From the NCBI GenBank assembly GCA_015178975.1, contig WHVD01000197.1, positions 1 to 64,000 of the forward strand: a DNA stretch of 64,000 bases, written 5' to 3'. The translations under genes were made by a program, and so were the position numbers. Source of the DNA: Hysterangium stoloniferum. Its lineage: Eukaryota; Basidiomycota; Agaricomycetes; Hysterangiales; Hysterangiaceae. Numbering within the stretch: the stretch's first letter is position 1; each line of letters opens with the position of its first letter. Positions 13,659 through 58,284 of this stretch are shown piece by piece. The notes beneath the pieces are model-generated. The model was not told the origin of the DNA, searched no databases, and saw nothing but the letters and a program-made list of their open reading frames with translations.

Positions 13659-13689
13659 TGTTAAAACTGCCTCCACTGTCTCCAAAACC

Positions 13690-13722
13690 TTCTGGAACCT
13701 TCTAGAACCTTCTAGAAGCTTC
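13690..13722 (+). promoter_or_regulatory. Seven-unit heat-shock element in LTR-S
   Basis: TTC and GAA alternate exactly every five bases: TTC 13690, GAA 13695, TTC 13700, GAA 13705, TTC 13710, GAA 13715, TTC 13720. Heat-shock factor binds such inverted nGAAn units. The same array is at 18247-18279, 22436-22468, 23767-23799, 24997-25029, 26677-26709 and 56392-56424. Confidence 0.75.
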
Positions 13723-13913
13723 CAGCATGTTCCAGGGTATTCCCAGTTCATTTCCCATGACAGCTGTCAATCAGCTGTCACTTTGTATTCCAGCTGTCAA
13801 TCAGCTGTCAGTTTCCATTCAAGCTGTCAATCAGCTGTCACTTATGACAGCTGTCAACCAGCTGTCAACCAGCTGTCACTTATGACAGCTGACAAGCCTA
13901 CTGATGTATAACA

Positions 13914-13920
13914 TATATAA
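13914..13920 (+). promoter_or_regulatory. TATA box of LTR-S
   Basis: TATATAA lies about 190 bp downstream of the heat-shock array and 87 bp before the LTR end, and is conserved in the other LTR-S copies. Confidence 0.55.
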
Positions 13921-14007
13921 GCTTGTAGTTAGTGACCTGAATAGTAACAACTTTCCTCAGACTTGTGTGTGTCACGTGTCACAGTAAGTCACAGGTCACT
14001 TTTAACA

Positions 14008-14020
14008 GGTTATGGGCCCC
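14008..14020 (+). other. Primer binding site, iMet half-tRNA type
   Basis: GGTTATGGGCCCC follows the LTR directly. It is complementary to the anticodon stem-loop of initiator tRNA-Met (GGGCCCAUAACC), not to a tRNA 3' end. Drosophila copia is known to prime from such an internal site. The same site occurs at 22168-22180, 56094-56106, 58020-58032 (all minus) and 62717-62729. Confidence 0.75.
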
Positions 14021-14248
14021 GCGCTCTAAGCGCTCTAGTACTGTATAACGTTTTGCAAACTCGCTTCTTTTGAGTAAGTTTCAGCCTATACTTTATATTC
14101 CCCTGCCAGGCCCAGCCTTATTGCTGTTGCTAGTAGGGAGGAACTTGTACGCCACTAAGGCTGAGTTTCCCTCGAGACTACCGTCTGGACCTCGAGTTAA
14201 ATACCTTTTTTCTCAACTTCTTTGCGAGTTTGCTACATCTATACTACA

Positions 14249-16540
14249 ATGCCATCTTCCATTCTCCAATTCCCTAAAGTCAATCAGACTAAAGGGAAGA
14301 AGGCAAATAGCACTCAAGAGACAATGTCTCAGGGCAATGCACCCACTGCATTTCTCAAATGTGCTTTCTGCTCCATGACCAACCATACTATGGACAAGTG
14401 TCATCGCTTCATCAAGAAGCAGCAGGAAGCACAGGAGAGTGTCCTTACCAATCGTGCTAAAGGGAAGAAAAAGCCAAATAGGCCTCAGAAGACAATGTCT
14501 CAAAACAATGTTGAATATAGTGGAAATGCACTTGCTTTCTCCTCATCCGATTCCTCCACCCTGCAGAATGGTTCTGACTATGATTGGCTTGCTGATACAG
14601 GTGCTAGTAGTCATATGACTCCTCATAGTCATTGGCTGCGTAACTACACACCATTATGTGTCCCAATCAAGTTAGCAGATCATACTGTTATCTACTCTGC
14701 AGGAGTTGGTTCTGTGGTATTCAACCCAGTTATAAATGGAAGGAAATCGCGATCTGTGGAGCTTACAAGAGTTTTGCATGTACCACAACTGCGCAGTAAC
14801 CTATTGTCTTGTCTTTATCTCACAAGACACAAAGGACTACTCATACACATTGATCGAACAACCATGCATTTCAAACTCTCTGGCCAGACTTTGTTTACAG
14901 CCAGAGTTACTGCACAGAATGCAGGCATCCTAAATGGTGCCACTGCACCTATTATTGAGCAAGCTGGTGCTGCCTCCACTCTTCCCTTTGATATCAATCT
15001 CTGGCATCGCCGTCTTGGACATCACAGCTATGCTGATGTCCAGAAGATGATCAGAGAAGGATTGGTGGTTGGCTTAAACCTTGACTCAAAGGAACAACCT
15101 GATCCTATCTGTGAACCTTGCCTTGCTGGCAAAATGACTGCCAATCCATTTCCTACCTCACCAAGTCAATCTCAGACACCACTTGAGCTTATTCATAGTG
15201 ATCTACATGGACCACTTCCTGTGCAAACAACTGAGGGTTATCACTACTGGATAACCTTTATTGATGATTGCACCAAGTTGCGAGCTGTTCTGTTCTTAAA
15301 ACGGAAGAGTGATGCATTTGAAGCATTCAGGAGATACAAAGCTTATGCTGAGAATCTTCTGGGTTGCAAGGTCAAAGCTCTGCAGGATGACAAAGGGGGT
15401 GAATACATGTCAAATGCTTTCATCAAGTTTACAGATGAATGTGGAATAGCACGCCGTCATACTACTCGCAATCGCCCTCAACAGAATGGAGTTGCAGAAC
15501 GAGCCAATCGTACCTTAGCTGATCATGTCACTGCCATGATGCATGAAGCGCGTATGCCTGCCTCATTCTGGAATCATGCTGTGGCATCTTATGTCTATGT
15601 ATGGAATCGTCTGCCTACTGCACCATTGCCTAAAACTACACCCTATGAGCAATGGTACAAGCAGAAACCAGATGTGAGCAACTTGCGAGTGTGGGGGTGT
15701 ACTGCCTATGTTTACATTCAAAAGGACAAAAGGAAGTCACTTCAGTCACACATGGAGAAATGCCTCTTTCTAGGCTATCCTGTGGGATACAAAGGTTGGC
15801 AATTCTACAACCCTGTTACAAAGAAGTTTATCATCTCTGAACGGGCTGTATTTGATGAACGCCACTTTCCTGGTCTATCTACTACTGGACCAATGCCTAA
15901 TATTAGGCTTTTCCCAAATATACCAAACTCTGACATTCCTTTATTTGTGCCAGAAGTAGAGGGGGATAATGATATTTCTGTCCCTCCTACTCATATTCCT
16001 GCACCTCCTGCTTATATTCCTGCACCTCCTGTTCAGATTCCTGCACCTCCTGCTCAGATTCCTGCACTTCCTGAACCCATTCAACTACCTCCTCCACCTG
16101 CACCAGAACCACAGCTTCGTCGCTCTCAGCGTGTTCCAAAGCAACCTGGTGAATGGTGGAAGGTACAACCAGCTCCAGCTCTAGCTGAAGATGATGATGA
16201 GGACATTGATTATGAGGAAGTACAATTTGTTGGAACAGCTTCAACTGCTGATCCACAAAACTACAAGCAGGCTATGAAAGGTGATGATGCAGATAAATGG
16301 CAAGAGGCTATCAATGCAGAGTACAATACACTGGTAGAAAACAAGACATGGGAACTTGTTGACCTCCCAGTTGGTGCAAAGGCAATTGGTTCTGGTTGGG
16401 TGTTTAAAGTCAAACACAATGCAGATGGCACAATTGAGCGTTATAAAGCTCGCCTTGTTGCCAAAGGATACTCACAACGTCCTGGCATTGACTACAATGA
16501 AGTGTTTGCACCTACTTTAGACCTGCAACTCTGCGTTTGA
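14249..16540 (+). CDS. Copia-1 Gag zinc knuckle-protease-integrase-RT N-terminus
   Basis: The start is the ATG at 14249; upstream in-frame codons are non-ATG. A CCHC zinc knuckle (CAFCSMTNHTMDKC) lies near residue 40, but the 200 or more residues of capsid that should precede it are absent. Protease has LADTGASSH. Integrase has the HHCC finger (WHRRLGHHS, CEPC) and a DDE core (HSDLHGP, DDKGGEY, NGVAERANRT). A Pro-rich linker with repeated IPAPP units (15990-16080) precedes the RT start (WVFKVKHNADG, RYKARLVAKGY). The ORF stops early because one base is missing near 16522, after VFAPTLDL; RT continues in the next frame. The same short-gag layout recurs in copy X. Confidence 0.9.
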   Translation: MPSSILQFPKVNQTKGKKANSTQETMSQGNAPTAFLKCAFCSMTNHTMDKCHRFIKKQQEAQESVLTNRAKGKKKPNRPQKTMSQNNVEYSGNALAFSSSDSSTLQNGSDYDWLADTGASSHMTPHSHWLRNYTPLCVPIKLADHTVIYSAGVGSVVFNPVINGRKSRSVELTRVLHVPQLRSNLLSCLYLTRHKGLLIHIDRTTMHFKLSGQTLFTARVTAQNAGILNGATAPIIEQAGAASTLPFDINLWHRRLGHHSYADVQKMIREGLVVGLNLDSKEQPDPICEPCLAGKMTANPFPTSPSQSQTPLELIHSDLHGPLPVQTTEGYHYWITFIDDCTKLRAVLFLKRKSDAFEAFRRYKAYAENLLGCKVKALQDDKGGEYMSNAFIKFTDECGIARRHTTRNRPQQNGVAERANRTLADHVTAMMHEARMPASFWNHAVASYVYVWNRLPTAPLPKTTPYEQWYKQKPDVSNLRVWGCTAYVYIQKDKRKSLQSHMEKCLFLGYPVGYKGWQFYNPVTKKFIISERAVFDERHFPGLSTTGPMPNIRLFPNIPNSDIPLFVPEVEGDNDISVPPTHIPAPPAYIPAPPVQIPAPPAQIPALPEPIQLPPPPAPEPQLRRSQRVPKQPGEWWKVQPAPALAEDDDEDIDYEEVQFVGTASTADPQNYKQAMKGDDADKWQEAINAEYNTLVENKTWELVDLPVGAKAIGSGWVFKVKHNADGTIERYKARLVAKGYSQRPGIDYNEVFAPTLDLQLCV

Positions 16541-18106
16541 TTCTGGCCCTAGCTGCCATTGAAGACATGGACTTGCGCTCTGTTGACATTTCTGCTGCTT
16601 TCACCCATGGTGACCTTGATGAGACAATCTATATGAGACAACCTGAAGGCTTCCATCAAGGAGGTCCTAATAAGGTTCTCAGACTCTTGAAATCACTTTA
16701 TGGTCTCAAGCAGGGATCTCGTCAATGGAACATCAAGTTACATGGTGCACTTACTGAAATGGAGTTCAAACGAATTGAATCTGATACCTCTGTTTACATT
16801 TATTCAAATGGAGAGGTCAAGATCTTTGTACCCATTTACATTGATGATATTACATTTGCATCCAAGTCCACTCTTGCCATTGACAAAGCTGTCAAGCAAT
16901 TGTCCCTGCATTTCAAATGCCGTGATCTTGGACCCACTGTTTATTTACTTGGTGTGGGAGTTGGCAGAGATCGCTCTAAGCGTCTCCTTACTCTTGATCA
17001 GCGACAATTTATTCTCAACATGCTTGAGCGTTATAACATGTCTGACTTGTTAGAGTATGATGATTACGATTAGTATTAAATCATACCTCGTATTGTGAAT
17101 GTATTTTTCCGGTCTGGTTCACATGTGATTAGCTATATTTAGTTTAGTGTTCCCTTAGTTCCAAACCAAGTGCACAGACCATGTAGCTTAGTATATAGTT
17201 ACATCCAGATGAGAGTAGGACCTCATCTGGAAACCTAGCTATATCACCGGTTTACTTCTACCCGCTCAGTCCTTAGTGGCATTCGCTCCAAGTGCCGAGA
17301 GTCATCGCACTGTGATCCCCCAGGCTTGCAGATCATAACATGACTGTCATCCAGTTCTCACACCTATGACACCTGGTACATCTCTTTCCAAAGAAATGGG
17401 TCCTGAGAATGCTGCAGAGGTGGATTTCATGCGTAGTGTTCCTTATCTCAGTGCTGTTGGGTCTTTACAATACCTGGCTACTATGACTCGTCCAGATATT
17501 GCTTATACTGTGTCCTACTTGGCACGTTTTAATTGCAATCCTGGACCAAAGCATTGGACAGCAGTGAAGCACTTGTTCAGATACCTAAAAGGTACACTGG
17601 ATTACAAGTTGCATTACTCTGGTAAATGTGTCTCTGAATTATTCACCACATACACTGATGCTGCTCATGGTGATTGTATTGATTCTGGAAGATCCACTGG
17701 TGGTTATGTCACTATGATGGCTGGAGGTGCTATTGGCTGGAGTAGTAAACTGCAAAGTATTGTCACACTTTCTACAACTGAAGCAGAATTTGTCTCTGCT
17801 GTAGAAGCTGGCAAGGAGATTGCCTGGATGCGAAAAATCCTAGGTGAATTTGGCTACCAAGTTAATCAGCCTTCAACTCTACACATTGACAACCAGTCTG
17901 CTATCAGTGTTGCTAAGAATCCTGAGCATCATGGGAGGATGAAACATCTTGACCTTCGCTACTATTGGCTTAGGGATGCTGTAAATGCCAAGTGTATTAC
18001 TCCTTCCTATATTCCTACTGCAGAACAACTTGCAGATATTCTAACGAAACCTCTATCCACTCCAAAAGTTCAATTTTGTTGTGCTGGAATGGGTATAAGG
18101 ACTTAG
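16523..18106 (+). pseudogene. Copia-1 RT C-terminal part and RNase H
   Basis: RT continues with the palm motif YIDDI near 16840. The sequence is broken at 17047 by a 293-bp solo LTR and resumes at 17346. RNase H follows, with YTDAAHGD, STTEAEF and HIDNQSAI, and the Copia tail ADILTKPL, ending at TAG 18104-18106. Without the frameshift and the insertion the polyprotein would be open, so inactivation looks recent. Confidence 0.88.
17048..17340 (+). repeat. Solo LTR, 293 bp, TSD TGACT
   Basis: Starts TGTTAGAGTATGATGATTAC and ends GATCATAACA, flanked by TGACT at 17043-17047 and 17341-17345. The first bases resemble LTR2, but the rest does not. This is the only copy of the family here. Confidence 0.9.
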
Positions 18107-18142
18107 TTTCTTGTTTTCTTTCTTACTCTCTGTAGTTTAGCA

Positions 18143-18145
<3 letters not shown>

Positions 18146-18180
<35 letters not shown>

Positions 18181-18215
18181 CTTTTTCTTTGGAGACATGT
18201 GAGATCAGGGGGGTC
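18146..18215 (+). repeat. CT microsatellite and G-rich tract before the 3' LTR
   Basis: A (CT)n run spans about 18146-18176. GATCAGGGGGGTC directly before the LTR at 18216 is the likely polypurine tract. Confidence 0.6.
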
Positions 18216-18542
18216 TGTTAAAACTGCCTCCACTGTCTCCAAAACCTTCTGGAACCTTCTAGAACCTTCTAGAAGCTTCCAGCATGTTCCAGGGTATTCC
18301 CAGTTCATTTCCCATGACAGCTGTCAATCAGCTGTCACTTTGTATTCCAGCTGTCAATCAGCTGTCAGTTTCCATTCAAGCTGTCAATCAGCTGTCACTT
18401 ATGACAGCTGTCACTTATGACAGCTGACAAGCCTACTGATGTATAACATATATAAGCTTGTAGTTAGTGACCTGAATAGTAACAACTTTTCTCAGACTTG
18501 TGTGTGTCACGTGTCACAGTAAGTCACAGGTCACTTTTAACA
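18216..18542 (+). repeat. 3' LTR of copia-1 (LTR-S, 327 bp)
   Basis: Same as the 5' LTR except for a shorter CAGCTG block (about one repeat unit fewer), so the length difference lies in the minisatellite. Heat-shock array at 18247-18279. Confidence 0.95.
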
Positions 18543-21289: not shown

Positions 21290-21862
21290 TTATTGAAATG
21301 GCAGGGCATAAAACTGTACCGCTCTAATCCATCTAGGGGCTCCTGGATGTTCCTGATAGAATTCTGCAACTAAGTCTGGAGCCTTGACATCATTCTCTGA
21401 GACCCATTCATTATGCTCATATCCATAACCTTCCCACTTGATCAAGAATTGGAGCTGATTCCGAAATCTCCTGCTATTGAGGATCTTCTCAACATGATAC
21501 TCCTCTTCACCTTCCACCAATATTGGCTCTGGTGCAGGTGGAGGATGGCATCCTGGGAAAGGGTCATCCAGTGCTGGAGTCAGTTTGACCACATTAAACA
21601 CTGGGTGAAGATGTTGCAAGGAATTGGGGAGTCTTAAACGATAAGCATTGCGACCCACTTTGGCTTGTATGGTAAAAGGCCCCAAATTGAGTTTGACTGA
21701 TGGCCTAGTGGTTCTAATATCACTAGCATCTAGGTACACCTTGTCTCCTACCTTGTAGTCAGGAGCAGGTATTCGCCACCGATTGTAATACCGTGCCATA
21801 TCCTCCTTGGCTTTAATGAGTGCTGTCTTTGCCTCTTCCAGTGCATGGGCCATTTGATCTTT
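21290..21862 (-). CDS. Gypsy D integrase C-terminus and chromodomain
   Basis: The final part of the D polyprotein, cut from the rest by the insertion at 21863. It holds the integrase C-terminal GPF-type module (VGDKVYLDASDIRT, LNLGPFTIQAKVG) and a chromodomain (YHVEKILNS, FLIKWEGYGYEHNEWV). It is open to its stop at 21290-21292. The chromodomain is expected to bind histone marks and guide integration. Confidence 0.92.
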   Translation of the reverse strand, partial: KDQMAHALEEAKTALIKAKEDMARYYNRWRIPAPDYKVGDKVYLDASDIRTTRPSVKLNLGPFTIQAKVGRNAYRLRLPNSLQHLHPVFNVVKLTPALDDPFPGCHPPPAPEPILVEGEEEYHVEKILNSRRFRNQLQFLIKWEGYGYEHNEWVSENDVKAPDLVAEFYQEHPGAPRWIRAVQFYALPFQ

Positions 21863-22499
21863 TGTTAAAGGCATAGAAAAGAATTGACCCAGCCTGGGAT
21901 TGAACCAAGGACCTCCTGGCTTTATATGCAGGTGCTCTTAACCACTGAGCTACTGGACCTATAGTCTAGTATTATATGATGGATTATATATACATATATA
22001 TAAGGACTTATGATGCCAACTTGTGCTCTTATAACAGCTTATATAACTGATGGCAAACCTGGGTCTTATAACAGTCTGTCACATATAGATATTGTATTTT
22101 CCCATTTCTAACACTTCCCCTGAAATCAATATCTAGTCTATACCCTACGCAGCAGATGAAGCTGAACGGGGCCCATAACCTGTTAAAAGTGACCTGTGAC
22201 TTACTGTGACACGTGACACACACAAGTCTGAGGAAAATTGTTACTATTCAGGTCACTAACTACAAGCTTATATATGTTATACATCAGTAGGCTTGTCAGC
22301 TGTCATAAGTGACAGCTGGTTGACAGCTGGTTGACAGCTGTCATAAGTGACAGCTGATTGACAGCTTGAATGGAAACTGACAGCTGATTGACAGCTGTCA
22401 TGGGAAATGAACTGGGAATACCCTGGAACATGCTGGAAGCTTCTAGAAGCTTCTAGAAGGTTCCAGAAGGTTTTGGAGACAGTGGAGGCAGTTTTAACA
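21863..22499 (-). mobile_element. Chimeric miniature retrotransposon with two different LTRs, TSD TCTTT
   Basis: Flanked by TCTTT at 21858-21862 and 22500-22504. Read on the minus strand it is an LTR-S (22499-22181), then the iMet-type primer site GGTTATGGGCCCC (22180-22168), a short spacer ending in the purine tract CAGGGGAAG (67 bp in all, 22180-22114), then a tRNA-bearing TRIM LTR (22113-21863, tRNA-like part 21959-21885). The spacer closely matches that of the complete TRIM at 57967-58032. It has no coding capacity. Confidence 0.93.
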
Positions 22500-22504
22500 T
22501 CTTT

Positions 22505-23492
22505 GAACTCATTGACTGATTCTAAATGGGATAAAGGCTGGTGTGGTTCAAATCCCATACGAGGGTGGCAGCCTGTATCTAGCATAAATGGTGTCTGTTG
22601 GGTGCTAGAATGGGGTACATTGTTGTGACTAAACTCAGCCAATGGGAGAAGCTCATCCCAATCATCTTGTCGTTCATTGATCCACACCCACAAGTACTGT
22701 TCCAGTTCTTGGTTGACTTGTTCTGTTTGGCCATCAGCCTGGGGATGATAGGCTGTAGTGGGGGATAATTTGATTCCCAGTAAATGAGACAATTCTTTAG
22801 TGAATTCTGCCACAAATTGAGGGCCACGATCAGATACCACCTGTCTAGGTAATCCATGCAGTTTCCACACATGAGTCAGAAATAGTTGTGCTGCACCTAA
22901 GGCTGTGATTGTGGTGTTAGTTGGAATGAAATGAGCTCGTTTGGTTATGGAGTCCACCACTACCATGATAGAGTCAAAACCATGGGCCTCAGGAAGTTCT
23001 ACAATGAAATCCACACTTATAGTGTCCCATCTGTTTTCTGGGATAGGGAGAGGTTCCAACTCACCCATAGGTTTCCTACGTTGAATCTTGGTCCTCAAAC
23101 AAGGGTCACAAGTGGCAACATAATGTCCAATGTACCGTGACATTTGTGGCCACCAGTAATTGCGTGCCACCAATTCTAAGGTTTTCCATCGGCCATGATG
23201 ACCACCAATGCGAGTATCATGATGCTGTGATACTATGACTCTTCGGAGCTCTGGGTCATTTGGCACATAGATCTTGCCACGAAAGTAAAGGATGCCCTGT
23301 AGCTCTGACCACTCTGCAGTCAGGACTTGTCGGGAGTTGCCTTGTTGAAGCTCTCGTGCTGCCTTTGCAACTGTGTCTTCTTGCAATCCCATTTGCCCTG
23401 CTCTACGGATCTTGCGCAGGACATCCTGCTCTTCCCCCACCAGTGTCAGACCCTCCAGGGCTCTGATTCAAAACAGGTCAGGGCGCAATAGT
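22505..23492 (-). CDS. Gypsy D integrase (zinc finger and catalytic core)
   Basis: An open segment of the D polyprotein between two insertions. It has the HHCC finger (HHDTRIGGHHG, then CDPC) and a DDE core: D in ISVDFIVELP, D in SDRGPQF and E in GQTEQVNQ. It carries out strand transfer of element cDNA. The upstream end is cut by LTR-S at 23493 and the downstream end by the chimeric element. No internal stops. Confidence 0.92.
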
Positions 23493-23830
23493 TGTTAAAA
23501 GTGACCTGTGACTTACTGTGACACGTGACACACACAAGTCTGAGGAAAGTTGTTACTATTCAGGTCACTAACTACAAGCTTATATATGTTATACATCAGT
23601 AGGCTTGTCAGCTGTCATAAGTGATAGCTGGTTGACAGCTGTCATAAGTGACAGCTGATTGACAGCTTGAATGGAAACTGACAGCTGATTGACAGCTGGA
23701 ATACAAAGTGACAGCTGATTGACAGCTGTCATGGGAAATGAACTGGGAATACTCTGGAACATGCTGGAAGCTTCTAGAAGGTTCTAGAAGGTTCCAGAAG
23801 GTCTTGGAGACAGTGGAGGCAGTTTTAACA
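23493..23830 (-). repeat. Solo LTR-S in gypsy D, TSD ATAGT
   Basis: 338 bp, flanked by ATAGT at 23488-23492 and 23831-23835. Heat-shock array at 23767-23799. Confidence 0.95.
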
Positions 23831-23835
23831 ATAGT

Positions 23836-24965
23836 ATTACATCAGCATTGTCTTCTGATCCTGTACCATGATCTGGTCTCCGTGACAGAGCATCTGGCTT
23901 CCCCATTGATTTTCCTGGCTTGTGGAATAAATCATATTCAAAGCGAGAGAGGAATAATGACCATCTCGCCTGTCTACGGTTGAGTTTTCGGGCTGACCTG
24001 AAGTACTGAAGATTCTGATGATCAGTCCAGATCTCTACCTTGTGCTGAGCACCTTCCAAGAAATGGCACCATTCTTCTAAGGCCTGGATTATGGAAAGGA
24101 GTTCTTTGTCATAAATCTCATAGTTCCGTTCCACAGCATTCAGACTTTTGGAGTAGAAGGCAACTGGGTGCCACTTCCCATCAGAGTCTGATTGATGGGA
24201 CAAGACTGCTCCTGTGGCAAAGTCTGAACTATCTGCCTCAATTCGAAATGGTTGATTGTCATTTAGGAGTGTGAGGACTGGAGCAGAGATCACCCGAGCC
24301 TTAATCCCATTAAATGCTTCTTGGGCCTCTGTGGACCACTTCCAGGCAACATCATTCCCTGTAAGATCAAACAATGGACGTGCAATCTTGGAAAAGTCTT
24401 GGATGAATCGACGGTAGAAATTTGCAAAACCCAAAAATGCCTGTACTTCCTTTTTATTTTTGGGAATGGGCCACTCTGCTACACCTGCTATCTTCACTGG
24501 GTCCATCTCCGTACAACCATGGGAGATAATGAGCCCCAAATATTCAATCTTGGTCTTCTCAAACTCACACTTCTCTGGACGTAAGTAAAGTTTATGATGT
24601 TGGAGTCGTTCCAAGACTAATCGCAGAACTCGGCGATGTTCTTCTAGAGTCTTGGTATAGATCAGGATGTCATCCAGGTATACACATACCACTCCTTCTC
24701 GGATCAGGTCTACAAAGATATCATTCATCATGGTCTGGAAAGTGGCTGGGCTATTGGTGAGTCCAAAGAACATCACCAGTGGTTCAAACAGTCCCCTATT
24801 GGTGCGAAAGGCTGCCTTCCATTCATCACCCTCTTTGATGCGAATGTTATTGTATCCCCATTGCACATCCAGCTTTGTAAAGTATCGAGCTCCCCTAAGC
24901 TGATTCACAAGTTCTGAAATCAATGGAATGGGATAACGGTTTTTCACTGTGATGGTATTCAACTC
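23836..24965 (-). CDS. Gypsy D reverse transcriptase and RNase H
   Basis: An open segment of the D polyprotein. RT has FTKLDVQWGYNNI, FFGLTNSPATFQ and the intact palm motif YLDD (24680-24669). The thumb region (PEKCEFEKTKIEYLGLIIS) and RNase H (EADSSDFATGAVL, YEIYDKELLSI, WTDHQNLQYF) follow. Bounded by LTR-S insertions at both ends; no internal stops. Confidence 0.93.
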
Positions 24966-25284
24966 TGTTAAAACTGCCTCCACTGTCTCCAAAACCTTCT
25001 GGAACCTTCTAGAAGCTTCTAGAAGCTTCCAGCATGTTCCAGGGTATTCCCAGTTCATTTCCCATGACAGCTGTCAATCAGCTGTCAGTTTCCATTCAAG
25101 CTGTCAATCAGCTGTCACTGATGACAGCTGTCAACCAGCTGTCAACCAGCTGTCACTTATGACAGCTGACAAGCCTACTGATGTATAACATATATAAGCT
25201 TGTAGTTAGTGACCTGAATAGTAATAACTTTCCTCAGACTTGTGTGTGTCACGTGTCACAGTAAGTCACAGGTCACATTTAACA
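24966..25284 (+). repeat. Solo LTR-S in gypsy D, TSD AACTC
   Basis: 319 bp, flanked by AACTC at 24961-24965 and 25285-25289, opposite in orientation to the two other LTR-S solos in this element. Heat-shock array at 24997-25029. Confidence 0.95.
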
Positions 25285-43791: not shown

Positions 43792-44042
43792 TGTTAAAGG
43801 CATAGAAAAGAATTGACCCAGCCTGGGATTGAACCAAGGACCTCCTGGCTTTATATGCAGGTGCTCTTAACCACTGAGCTACTGGACCTATAGTCTAGTA
43901 TTATATGATGGATTATATATACATATATATAAGGACTTATGATGCCAACTTGTGCTCTTATAACAGCTTATATAACTGATGGCAAACCTGGGTCTTATAA
44001 CAGTCTGTCACATATAGATATTGTATTTTCCCATTTCTAACA
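43792..44042 (-). repeat. tRNA-bearing TRIM LTR at the gypsy B/C junction
   Basis: 251 bp. The left flank is gypsy B ORF3 (CCAGC) and the right flank is gypsy C protease (GACTT), with no target duplication. This is a recombination junction, not a simple insertion. tRNA-like part at 43814-43888. Confidence 0.92.
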
Positions 44043-57714: not shown

Positions 57715-58284
57715 TGTTAAAGGCATAGAAAAGATGTTGACCCAGCCTGGGATTGAACCAAGGACCTCCTGGCTTTATATGCAGGTGCTCTTAACCACTG
57801 AGCTACTGGACCTATAGTCTAGTATTATATGATGGATTATATATACATATATATAAGGACTTGTGATGCCAACTTGTGCTCTTATAACAGTTTATATAAC
57901 TGATGGCAAGCCTGGGTCTTATAACAGTCTGTCACATATAGATATTGTATTTTCCCATTTCTAACACTTCCCCTGAAATCAATATCTAGTCTATACCCTA
58001 TGCAGCGCACCAAGCTCAGGGGGCCCATAACCTGTTAAAGGCATAGAAAAGATGTTGACCCAGCCTGGGATTGAACCAAGGACCTCCTGGCTTTATATGC
58101 AGGTGCTCTTAACCACTGAGCTACTGGACCTATAGTCTAGTATTATATGATGGATTATATATACATATATATAAGGACTTGTGATGCCAACTTGTGCTCT
58201 TATAACAGTTTATATAACTGATGGCAAGCCTGGGTCTTATAACAGTCTGTCACATATAGATATTGTATTTTCCCATTTCTAACA
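57715..58284 (-). mobile_element. Complete TRIM retrotransposon with tRNA-like LTRs, TSD CGAAT
   Basis: 570 bp, flanked by CGAAT at 57710-57714 and 58285-58289. Two 252-bp LTRs (57715-57966 and 58033-58284), identical as far as I can read, enclose only 66 bp. On the minus strand that interior is the primer site GGTTATGGGCCCC, a short spacer, and the purine tract CAGGGGAAG. There is no coding capacity, so proteins must come from another element, perhaps a Copia with the same primer site. Identical LTRs suggest recent insertion. Confidence 0.95.
57738..57812 (-). other. tRNA-like sequence in TRIM LTR (also 58056-58130)
   Basis: 75 nt. Acceptor strands GGTCCAG and CTGGGTC pair at all seven positions (two G-U). 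The D arm has A-box TAGCTCAGTGG, the T arm CTTGG/CCAGG encloses B-box GGTTCAATCCC. The anticodon stem has a C-C mismatch with an enlarged loop. A TTTT run follows about 10 nt later, a possible pol III stop. Not called a tRNA gene because it is part of a dispersed LTR. Confidence 0.8.

Follow-up and report, generated by a model that had tools for sequence, protein, structure and literature searches.

A 637-bp element at positions 21863–22499 of a 64,000-nucleotide stretch of Hysterangium stoloniferum DNA (the window) carries two different LTRs, one from a Copia family and one from a Helenus-type TRIM, between perfect copies of a 5-bp target-site duplication (TSD). Elements of this build recur in the assembly, the reciprocal exchange also occurs, and the foreign LTR was found only at the 5' end. 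We consider it probable, at roughly three chances in four, that the element already had its two unlike LTRs when it integrated, as a heterodimer originating from intermolecular second-strand transfer.

Direct reading of the sequence gave the exact span of the element, which has TG...CA ends, starts on the forward strand with TGTTAAAG (the opening stretch is also written TGTTAAAGG), ends with TTTTAACA, and lies between TCTTT at 21858–21862 on the left and TCTTT at 22500–22504 on the right. Along the minus strand, its components are ordered as LTR-S, primer site, spacer, purine tract and LTR-T; since the minus strand is the sense strand, LTR-S is the 5' LTR and LTR-T the 3' LTR. In BLAST comparisons with the window, LTR-S (319 bp, 22181–22499, minus strand; bases 319–637 of the element) matched copies of the LTR of a Copia family, including those of the Copia at 13659–18542, with 98.7% identity to the copy at 24966–25284 and at most 93%, with gaps, to window copies of different length; its identity to the LTR at the 5' end of a Copia at C534:340180 is 99.7% when gap columns are disregarded. 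LTR-T (251 bp, 21863–22113, minus strand) is the LTR of the TRIM, and is 100% identical to positions 43792–44042 and 96–99% identical to the remaining window copies. The 67-bp TRIM internal region that separates them (22114–22180, minus strand) is a spacer that includes the primer-binding site (PBS) GGTTATGGGCCCCG at 22167–22180 and, abutting the 3' LTR, the polypurine tract (PPT) TCAGGGGAAG at 22114–22123, both on the minus strand. This region, bases 252–318 of the element, matched the spacer of the complete TRIM at 57715–58284; all its 67 bases are found in homotypic copies (LTR-T, spacer, LTR-T; T-INT-T), such as L018 and L020, and TCAGGGGAAG occurs in all printed TRIM spacers. The best alignment between LTR-S and LTR-T had an E value of 0.12, the longest covering 19 bp, indicating that the LTRs are mutually unrelated. 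Sequence reading and BLAST thus confirm what the first-pass annotation had described, a single element with two different LTRs and a perfect TCTTT duplication.

The insertion target is a chromovirus-type Gypsy (21290–25058, minus strand), recognised by domain matches on both sides of the insertion, with SH3_Tf2-1 and a chromodomain on one side and integrase, reverse transcriptase and RNase H on the other; this span contains further LTR insertions and its limits are not mapped outer ends. Paralogous Gypsy copies on contigs C51, C323 and C263, taken from nine other places at 95% identity or more, run unbroken through the insertion site with one TCTTT. In all three of the copies fetched, the left and right flanks of the empty site overlap by five bases, corresponding to that single TCTTT.

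The Copia at 13659–18542 (plus strand) carries LTR-S and the same PBS, as established from the PBS, the internal ends and the domain order. Its two ORFs (window 14222–17073) contain gag_pre-integrs, rve, SH3 and RVT_2 domains in that order, so that the donor of LTR-S has its integrase upstream of an RVT_2-type reverse transcriptase, as in Ty1/Copia elements, and the best named matches of the Copia ORF were from Agaricomycetes (Agrocybe chaxingu, Taiwanofungus and Agaricus; best 120 of 1432), on which ground a rust fungus was rejected as host. This copy has a 5' LTR of 349 bp, a 3' LTR of 327 bp and no TSD, and in the LTR-S tree (see below) each of its two LTRs clusters with other Copia copies than its partner does; it is perhaps a product of within-family exchange or a recombinant. 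Among Copia copies from the window and the genome, the length of LTR-S ranges from 294 to 417 bp, apparently through a varying number of short CAGCTGTCA-like subrepeats recognised by eye.

The TRIM family is represented in the window by the homotypic copy at 57715–58284 (minus strand; TSD CGAAT). Among the loci read, arrays left out, there were 20 simple T-INT-T elements of about 570 bp, 14 of them with a 5-bp TSD, and the window and fetched loci together contain 84 full or nearly full copies of LTR-T. ARAGORN called a tRNA-Tyr(ata) within the LTR-T of the heterodimer (21885–21959, minus strand), and a tRNA in seven of the seven window copies of LTR-T (the element's own and six more). The tRNA-like sequence of the element contains, by eye, an A-box-like motif, TAGCTCAGTGG, and a B-box-like motif, GGTTCAATCC, relative to what we take to be the consensus of these Pol III boxes. 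The LTR-T copy at 43792–44042 has no recognised adjoining spacer; its complete identity to the LTR-T of the element suggests, from sequence, that the TRIM family may have been active recently. Helenus, known from some Agaricomycetes and described in the accessible text of Kojima (2024; PMC10886601), resembles our homotypic T-INT-T elements in its tRNA-like LTR, PPT, 5-bp TSD and size of less than 1 kb, and its PBS, as here, is shared with Copia elements that have different LTRs and, in most fungal families, corresponds to the anticodon loop of initiator tRNA-Met. Both LTRs of a Helenus belong to its own family, whereas the 5' LTR of the element at 21863–22499 is the Copia LTR-S.

The first-pass annotation had proposed that the Copia and the TRIM share a primer site, and the sharing proved to extend over 21 identical bases at the exchanged junction, TTTAACA from the LTR end followed by the common 14-bp PBS GGTTATGGGCCCCG, which is complementary to the anticodon arm of initiator tRNA-Met. 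On the PPT side, the two families are identical only over TCAGGGG (7 bp) and TGTTA (5 bp). Two tRNA-Met genes identified with ARAGORN, L104 and L105, contain GCGCGGGGCCCATAACC; they come from two of the four places fetched, out of 15 matches, and are presumably initiator genes, judging by the initiator sequences familiar to us. Complementarity to this tRNA extends over 17 bases for the PBS of Copia and 14 for that of the TRIM, lengths that are, in sequence terms, the pattern of a putative 3'-truncated initiator tRNA primer. The same pattern is reported for many fungal Helenus in the accessible part of Kojima (2024; PMC10886601).

A DNA search of the assembly (111,116,353 bases in 554 contigs) with the 637-bp element returned at least 16 places that cover essentially its full length, from 40 scored out of 488 candidates. 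The assembly contains at least 18 junctions of LTR-S with the TRIM (S-TRIM) at the 5' side: 17 were found by pattern search, which gave 18 rows, of which that on C88 was dropped as a Copia variant, and the eighteenth, on C544, has an inserted base in the PBS and is kept outside the count of discordant junctions given below. They correspond to 12 simple full-length S-INT-T elements, four composites (C2, C259, C35:1081k and C534:341k) and two fragments (C441:338.6k and C543:297k). Perfect 5-bp TSDs, all different in sequence, flank nine of the 12 simple elements (TCTTT, GATTT, CTGTC, CGCGT, TGGAT, TTACA, TTTAT, CCAGG and CAATC), eight being flagged by an exact rule and that of C59 (TTTAT) added by eye, the outer CA of its LTR-T being TA; among these 12, no TSD was found at C514:299669, C543:251048 and C68:972604. 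One heterodimer, C441:338742, is inserted within the LTR-S of another, truncated heterodimer. The further heterodimers with TSDs that the first-pass annotation had proposed to look for therefore exist, and their recurrence, together with the empty site, indicates that the structure is not due to chance.

To compare the two sides of the internal region, we searched the whole assembly for junction patterns, allowing up to two mismatches (three for T-Copia). On the PBS side there were 62 S-Copia, 6 T-Copia, 55 T-TRIM and 17 S-TRIM junctions. On the PPT side, all 72 Copia junctions were with LTR-S and all 74 TRIM junctions with LTR-T, and neither Copia-T nor TRIM-S was found among these 146 junctions, although the patterns were equally open to the start of either LTR; reversed-pattern controls gave no matches. 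Discordant junctions thus amounted to 23 of 140 on the PBS side versus 0 of 146 on the PPT side (Fisher p = 2.7e-8), counts that are partly non-independent, as arrays and an apparent tandem duplication on C543 add to the T-TRIM class, and the 23 junctions sit in 20 elements, with three composites contributing two each. In the apparent duplication, the TRIM junctions C543:266609, 272023 and 277437 are spaced by exactly 5,414 bp, as are the neighbouring Copia junctions, and the counts are probably inflated here by a segmental duplication in three copies. A looser PBS-side pattern, with three mismatches, matched 254 places, 100 of them listed, and the approximately 114 that fit no class of the four would belong to other families or to copies that have diverged. 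Among the 100 places listed, other LTR ends precede the same initiator-tRNA-Met primer site, of the form CTATACC...GTCA at C475:338847, C518:445319, C521:183703 and C96:58757, and CTACACT at C135:369701 and C512:308474; more families may therefore take part in the exchange.

The six reciprocal T-Copia junctions of the assembly include three within Copia/TRIM composites. The simple T-Copia-S elements, each read as one continuous Copia from the position and spacing of its junctions, comprise one at C35:906369–911437 with TSD AGAGA in a low-complexity flank, and those on C14 and C256, which lack a TSD (two of three). As for the composites, whose structures are deduced from ends and junctions, T-Copia-S-INT-T occupies C2:477284–482106 (TSD TTTTT, also in a low-complexity flank) and S-INT-T-Copia-S occupies C259:29110–34009 (TSD GTGAT), while a similar composite at C35:1081k lacks a TSD (one of the three with both ends read); that at C534:341093 is outside these end-based counts. 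Additionally, four loci contain head-to-tail TRIM arrays of three or more LTR-T with common spacers, each with a single perfect 5-bp TSD: C534:335392–336914 (CTAGA), C534:47742–49976 (GTATT), C4:59677–60879 (CAACC) and C182:21455–22343 (CCATA). In the array at C534:47742, LTRs of 251 and 289 bp alternate, which suggests later duplication of a unit.

In textbook reverse transcription a single molecule templates both LTRs; at the second-strand transfer, the plus-strand strong-stop DNA (U3-R-U5-PBS) normally pairs through its PBS with the minus strand of its own cDNA. Our results support the claim, already made in the first-pass annotation, that this standard route should not form the element. 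In the process that we propose, Copia plus-strand strong-stop DNA, consisting of LTR-S and the copied primer site, would anneal to the 3' end of TRIM minus-strand cDNA through the common initiator-tRNA-Met primer site, and its extension would generate LTR-S, PBS, TRIM spacer, PPT and LTR-T, in that order, a heterodimer that a Copia-type integrase would insert with a 5-bp duplication. Exchange in the other direction would produce T-Copia-S, and a plus strand longer than strong-stop at the primer site would lead to the Copia/TRIM composites and the TRIM concatemers. A complete foreign 5' LTR followed by the TRIM's own internal region, PPT and 3' LTR fits intermolecular second-strand transfer, whose products should show a PBS junction and a 3' LTR matching the PPT and internal region, as we found. 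The restriction of exchanges to the 5' side likewise fits transfer at a common PBS, and would be unexpected from gene conversion, nested insertion or first-strand switching, since first-strand exchange yields two identical hybrid LTRs.

The transfer step itself, the co-presence of both cDNAs and the Copia integrase as agent are what we infer from these structures; the two cDNAs could have been joined outside the particle, and the joining enzyme may be of the host rather than the element's own. Some observations weigh against second-strand transfer. TSDs are missing from a minority of the simple heterodimers, from most of the simple T-Copia-S and from one end-read composite, and both TTTTT and AGAGA lie in low-complexity flanks; besides, with 21 bp of identity at the PBS against 7 and 5 bp at the PPT, any joining by microhomology would favour the PBS side. 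Moreover, the second transfer of retroviruses is generally intramolecular, according to the available text of PMC5651808.

Joining of the two DNAs before integration could also have taken another form, by recombination of finished double-stranded cDNAs or by host alternative end joining at the 21-bp block, an explanation that we regard as possible but doubtful, even counting in it the overlapping case of host enzymes joining unfinished cDNA. The 21-bp identity falls exactly on the exchanged junction, as this explanation would have it. Yang et al. (2023) is reportedly the study behind a review statement on host alternative end joining in second-strand transfer. Two reviews, as far as their accessible text goes, report that host alternative end-joining factors use PBS microhomology for that transfer (PMC12786077, PMC10671454). 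However, in the composites a 3'-end LTR is followed by a PBS, and finished linear cDNA has no PBS beyond its LTR, which suggests an intermediate with the PBS still at the end of its plus strand; composites could also have arisen if a heterodimer recombined with another element through LTRs of the same kind. Alternatively, a longer concatemer, for instance S-Copia-S-INT-T, might have been inserted with one TSD and then collapsed by recombination between LTR-S copies, with loss of the Copia and one LTR. Mixed composites bearing a TSD do exist, as do window copies of LTR-S and LTR-T with no recognised internal region, but simple heterodimers outnumber composites by 12 to four, the parent form S-Copia-S-INT-T is absent among the three end-read composites, and composites themselves need a joining on the PBS side, so that collapse, which we consider improbable, merely moves the step.

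The first-pass annotation had favoured template switching between co-packaged RNAs, and of this proposal the strand switching stands in spirit, but the complete 5' LTR and the polarity indicate that the step was probably a second-strand transfer at the DNA level. A switch from the RNA of one family to that of the other at the PBS, while the minus strand is being made, has in its favour the common PBS and the fact that copy-choice between packaged RNAs is well known. Yet copy-choice at that point yields a 5' LTR without U3, as the RNA upstream of the PBS contains only R-U5, whereas the 12 simple heterodimers have a complete 5' LTR-S starting with TGTTAAAACTG; read-through RNAs would be needed, and we judge this origin quite unlikely. 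The likelihood of later gene conversion of one LTR in a homotypic insertion, or of nested insertion, is lower still, only slight. Ectopic conversion among repeats is common, but LTR-S and LTR-T are dissimilar, the flanks of the sites differ, conversion could hardly stop exactly at the TG...CA ends by the TSD in nine elements, and it predicts no difference between the PPT and PBS sides; nesting, in turn, should be recognisable by an additional TSD and an additional LTR. The repeated TSD-flanked cases, the empty site and the polarity thus led us to reject both as the main cause, which were the events named in the first-pass annotation as able to overturn its interpretation. The suggestion in that annotation that Copia machinery mobilises the TRIM is very probably right, in view of the shared primer site, the 5-bp TSDs and the mixed ends.

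To examine the independence of these events, we compared 56 LTR-S copies in a tree: 14 from heterodimers or composites (out of 18, the rest not being full-length by our filter), 34 with only Copia neighbours, and 8 in no group. The LTR-S of heterodimers were scattered among those of Copia without forming a clade, with 13 label changes against a shuffled mean of 11.2 (489 of 500 shuffles were as low), although this tree has few well-supported branches and at least two of the changes are forced. The spacer is mostly of a 66-bp or a 67-bp type, and both types occur among heterodimers. Heterodimer RNA should not remake a heterodimer by the standard route, so most copies should be separate events. 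We therefore rejected descent from one inherited heterodimer family, for lack of a clade, within the support of that tree, and of the expected ability to self-reproduce.

Homotypic TRIMs also contain unlike LTRs. Among 14 simple T-INT-T with a TSD, the LTR pair was identical in six and different in eight, and 17 of 20 LTR differences lay at positions for which each of the two states is also present in two or more other copies (a tally by hand from the printed list that counts copies, not loci, and omits C534:40416, which has nine differences, mostly private and clustered). Differences in such shared alleles are, by their sequence pattern, unlike what new private mutations would leave. In C534:218560 (TSD TGTAG), the 5' LTR is that of the copies on C223 and C35 and the 3' LTR is that of the element at 21863–22499 and two others; the LTRs of C543:291243 (TSD GACAG) likewise match different haplotypes. 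Among the LTR-T copies compared, the homotypic TRIMs on C14 and C60 have an identical copy elsewhere for the 5' LTR only, and those at C35:1065828 and C441:306870 for neither LTR. Association of spacer type (66 or 67 bp) with LTR-T alleles, which intermolecular transfer should confine to the 3' LTR, was weak on both the 5' and 3' sides. Post-insertion conversion between LTR-T copies could have caused the mixed haplotypes, and recurrent mutation may account for some of the shared alleles.

LTR swapping is reportedly the subject of Du et al. (2010). Multi-LTR complexes with one TSD, ascribed to abnormal strand transfer before integration, were described in Triticeae by Sabot and Schulman (2007; PMC1950507), who also mention chimeric elements from co-packaged RNAs; there were two in about 7 Mb, and one each in rice and maize. 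Those complexes join two related elements, with three LTRs, near-identical outer LTRs and switching in the R region (first strand), whereas ours involve two families with unrelated LTRs, two-LTR heterodimers and exchange on the PBS side only. A third LTR, like outer LTRs and one TSD are combined here only in the composites on C2 (T...T) and C259 (S...S); the element at 21863–22499 has neither an internal third LTR nor like outer LTRs. A murine VL30 insertion with unlike 5' and 3' LTRs (U3 subtypes I and IV) is, as presented in the available text of PMC2861705, a single element with subtypes of one family and no test of mechanism or polarity. For HIV-1, the accessible text of PMC5651808 locates the second transfer at the PBS and puts forward an intermolecular event as the source of discordant proviruses. 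That case was deduced from recombinant HIV sequences that had gone through further cycles, and none of 27 proviruses had a U5/gag breakpoint, whereas in our assembly discordant copies combining two families are directly visible as integrated elements. Tandem Cassandra arrays, head-to-tail with common LTRs like those on C182, C4 and C534, concern one family and are explained by recombination and/or template switching in the available part of PMC7215508, and tandem LTR elements in plants are also noted in that of PMC11899658. The main text of PMC10886601 has no words starting with 'hybrid', 'chimer' or 'heterolog' and, as far as available, describes no Helenus/Copia two-LTR elements, reciprocal exchanges or Copia-Helenus composites such as ours. 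Among the open-licence papers listed by our searches, none reported that an autonomous and a non-autonomous family exchange LTRs repeatedly, in both directions and at the 5' end only; the recurrent polar two-family series would therefore be new, although a single two-LTR element and three-LTR complexes were already known.

Some twenty integrated, polar and reciprocal exchanges make directly testable when and how cDNA ends meet. They also provide physical evidence for Copia mobilising a Helenus-type TRIM, reveal a route by which a TRIM can gain a foreign promoter-bearing LTR, and indicate that LTR divergence can overestimate the age of an insertion. More tentatively, second-strand transfer in this fungus might be largely an open intermolecular joining of cDNA ends that have the same primer site, perhaps by host end-joining. 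If so, a single pathway would account for heterodimers, composites, concatemers and the 'homotypic' TRIMs with two haplotypes, the identity between LTRs would be an unreliable clock, and a common primer site would let a TRIM borrow the LTR of its partner.
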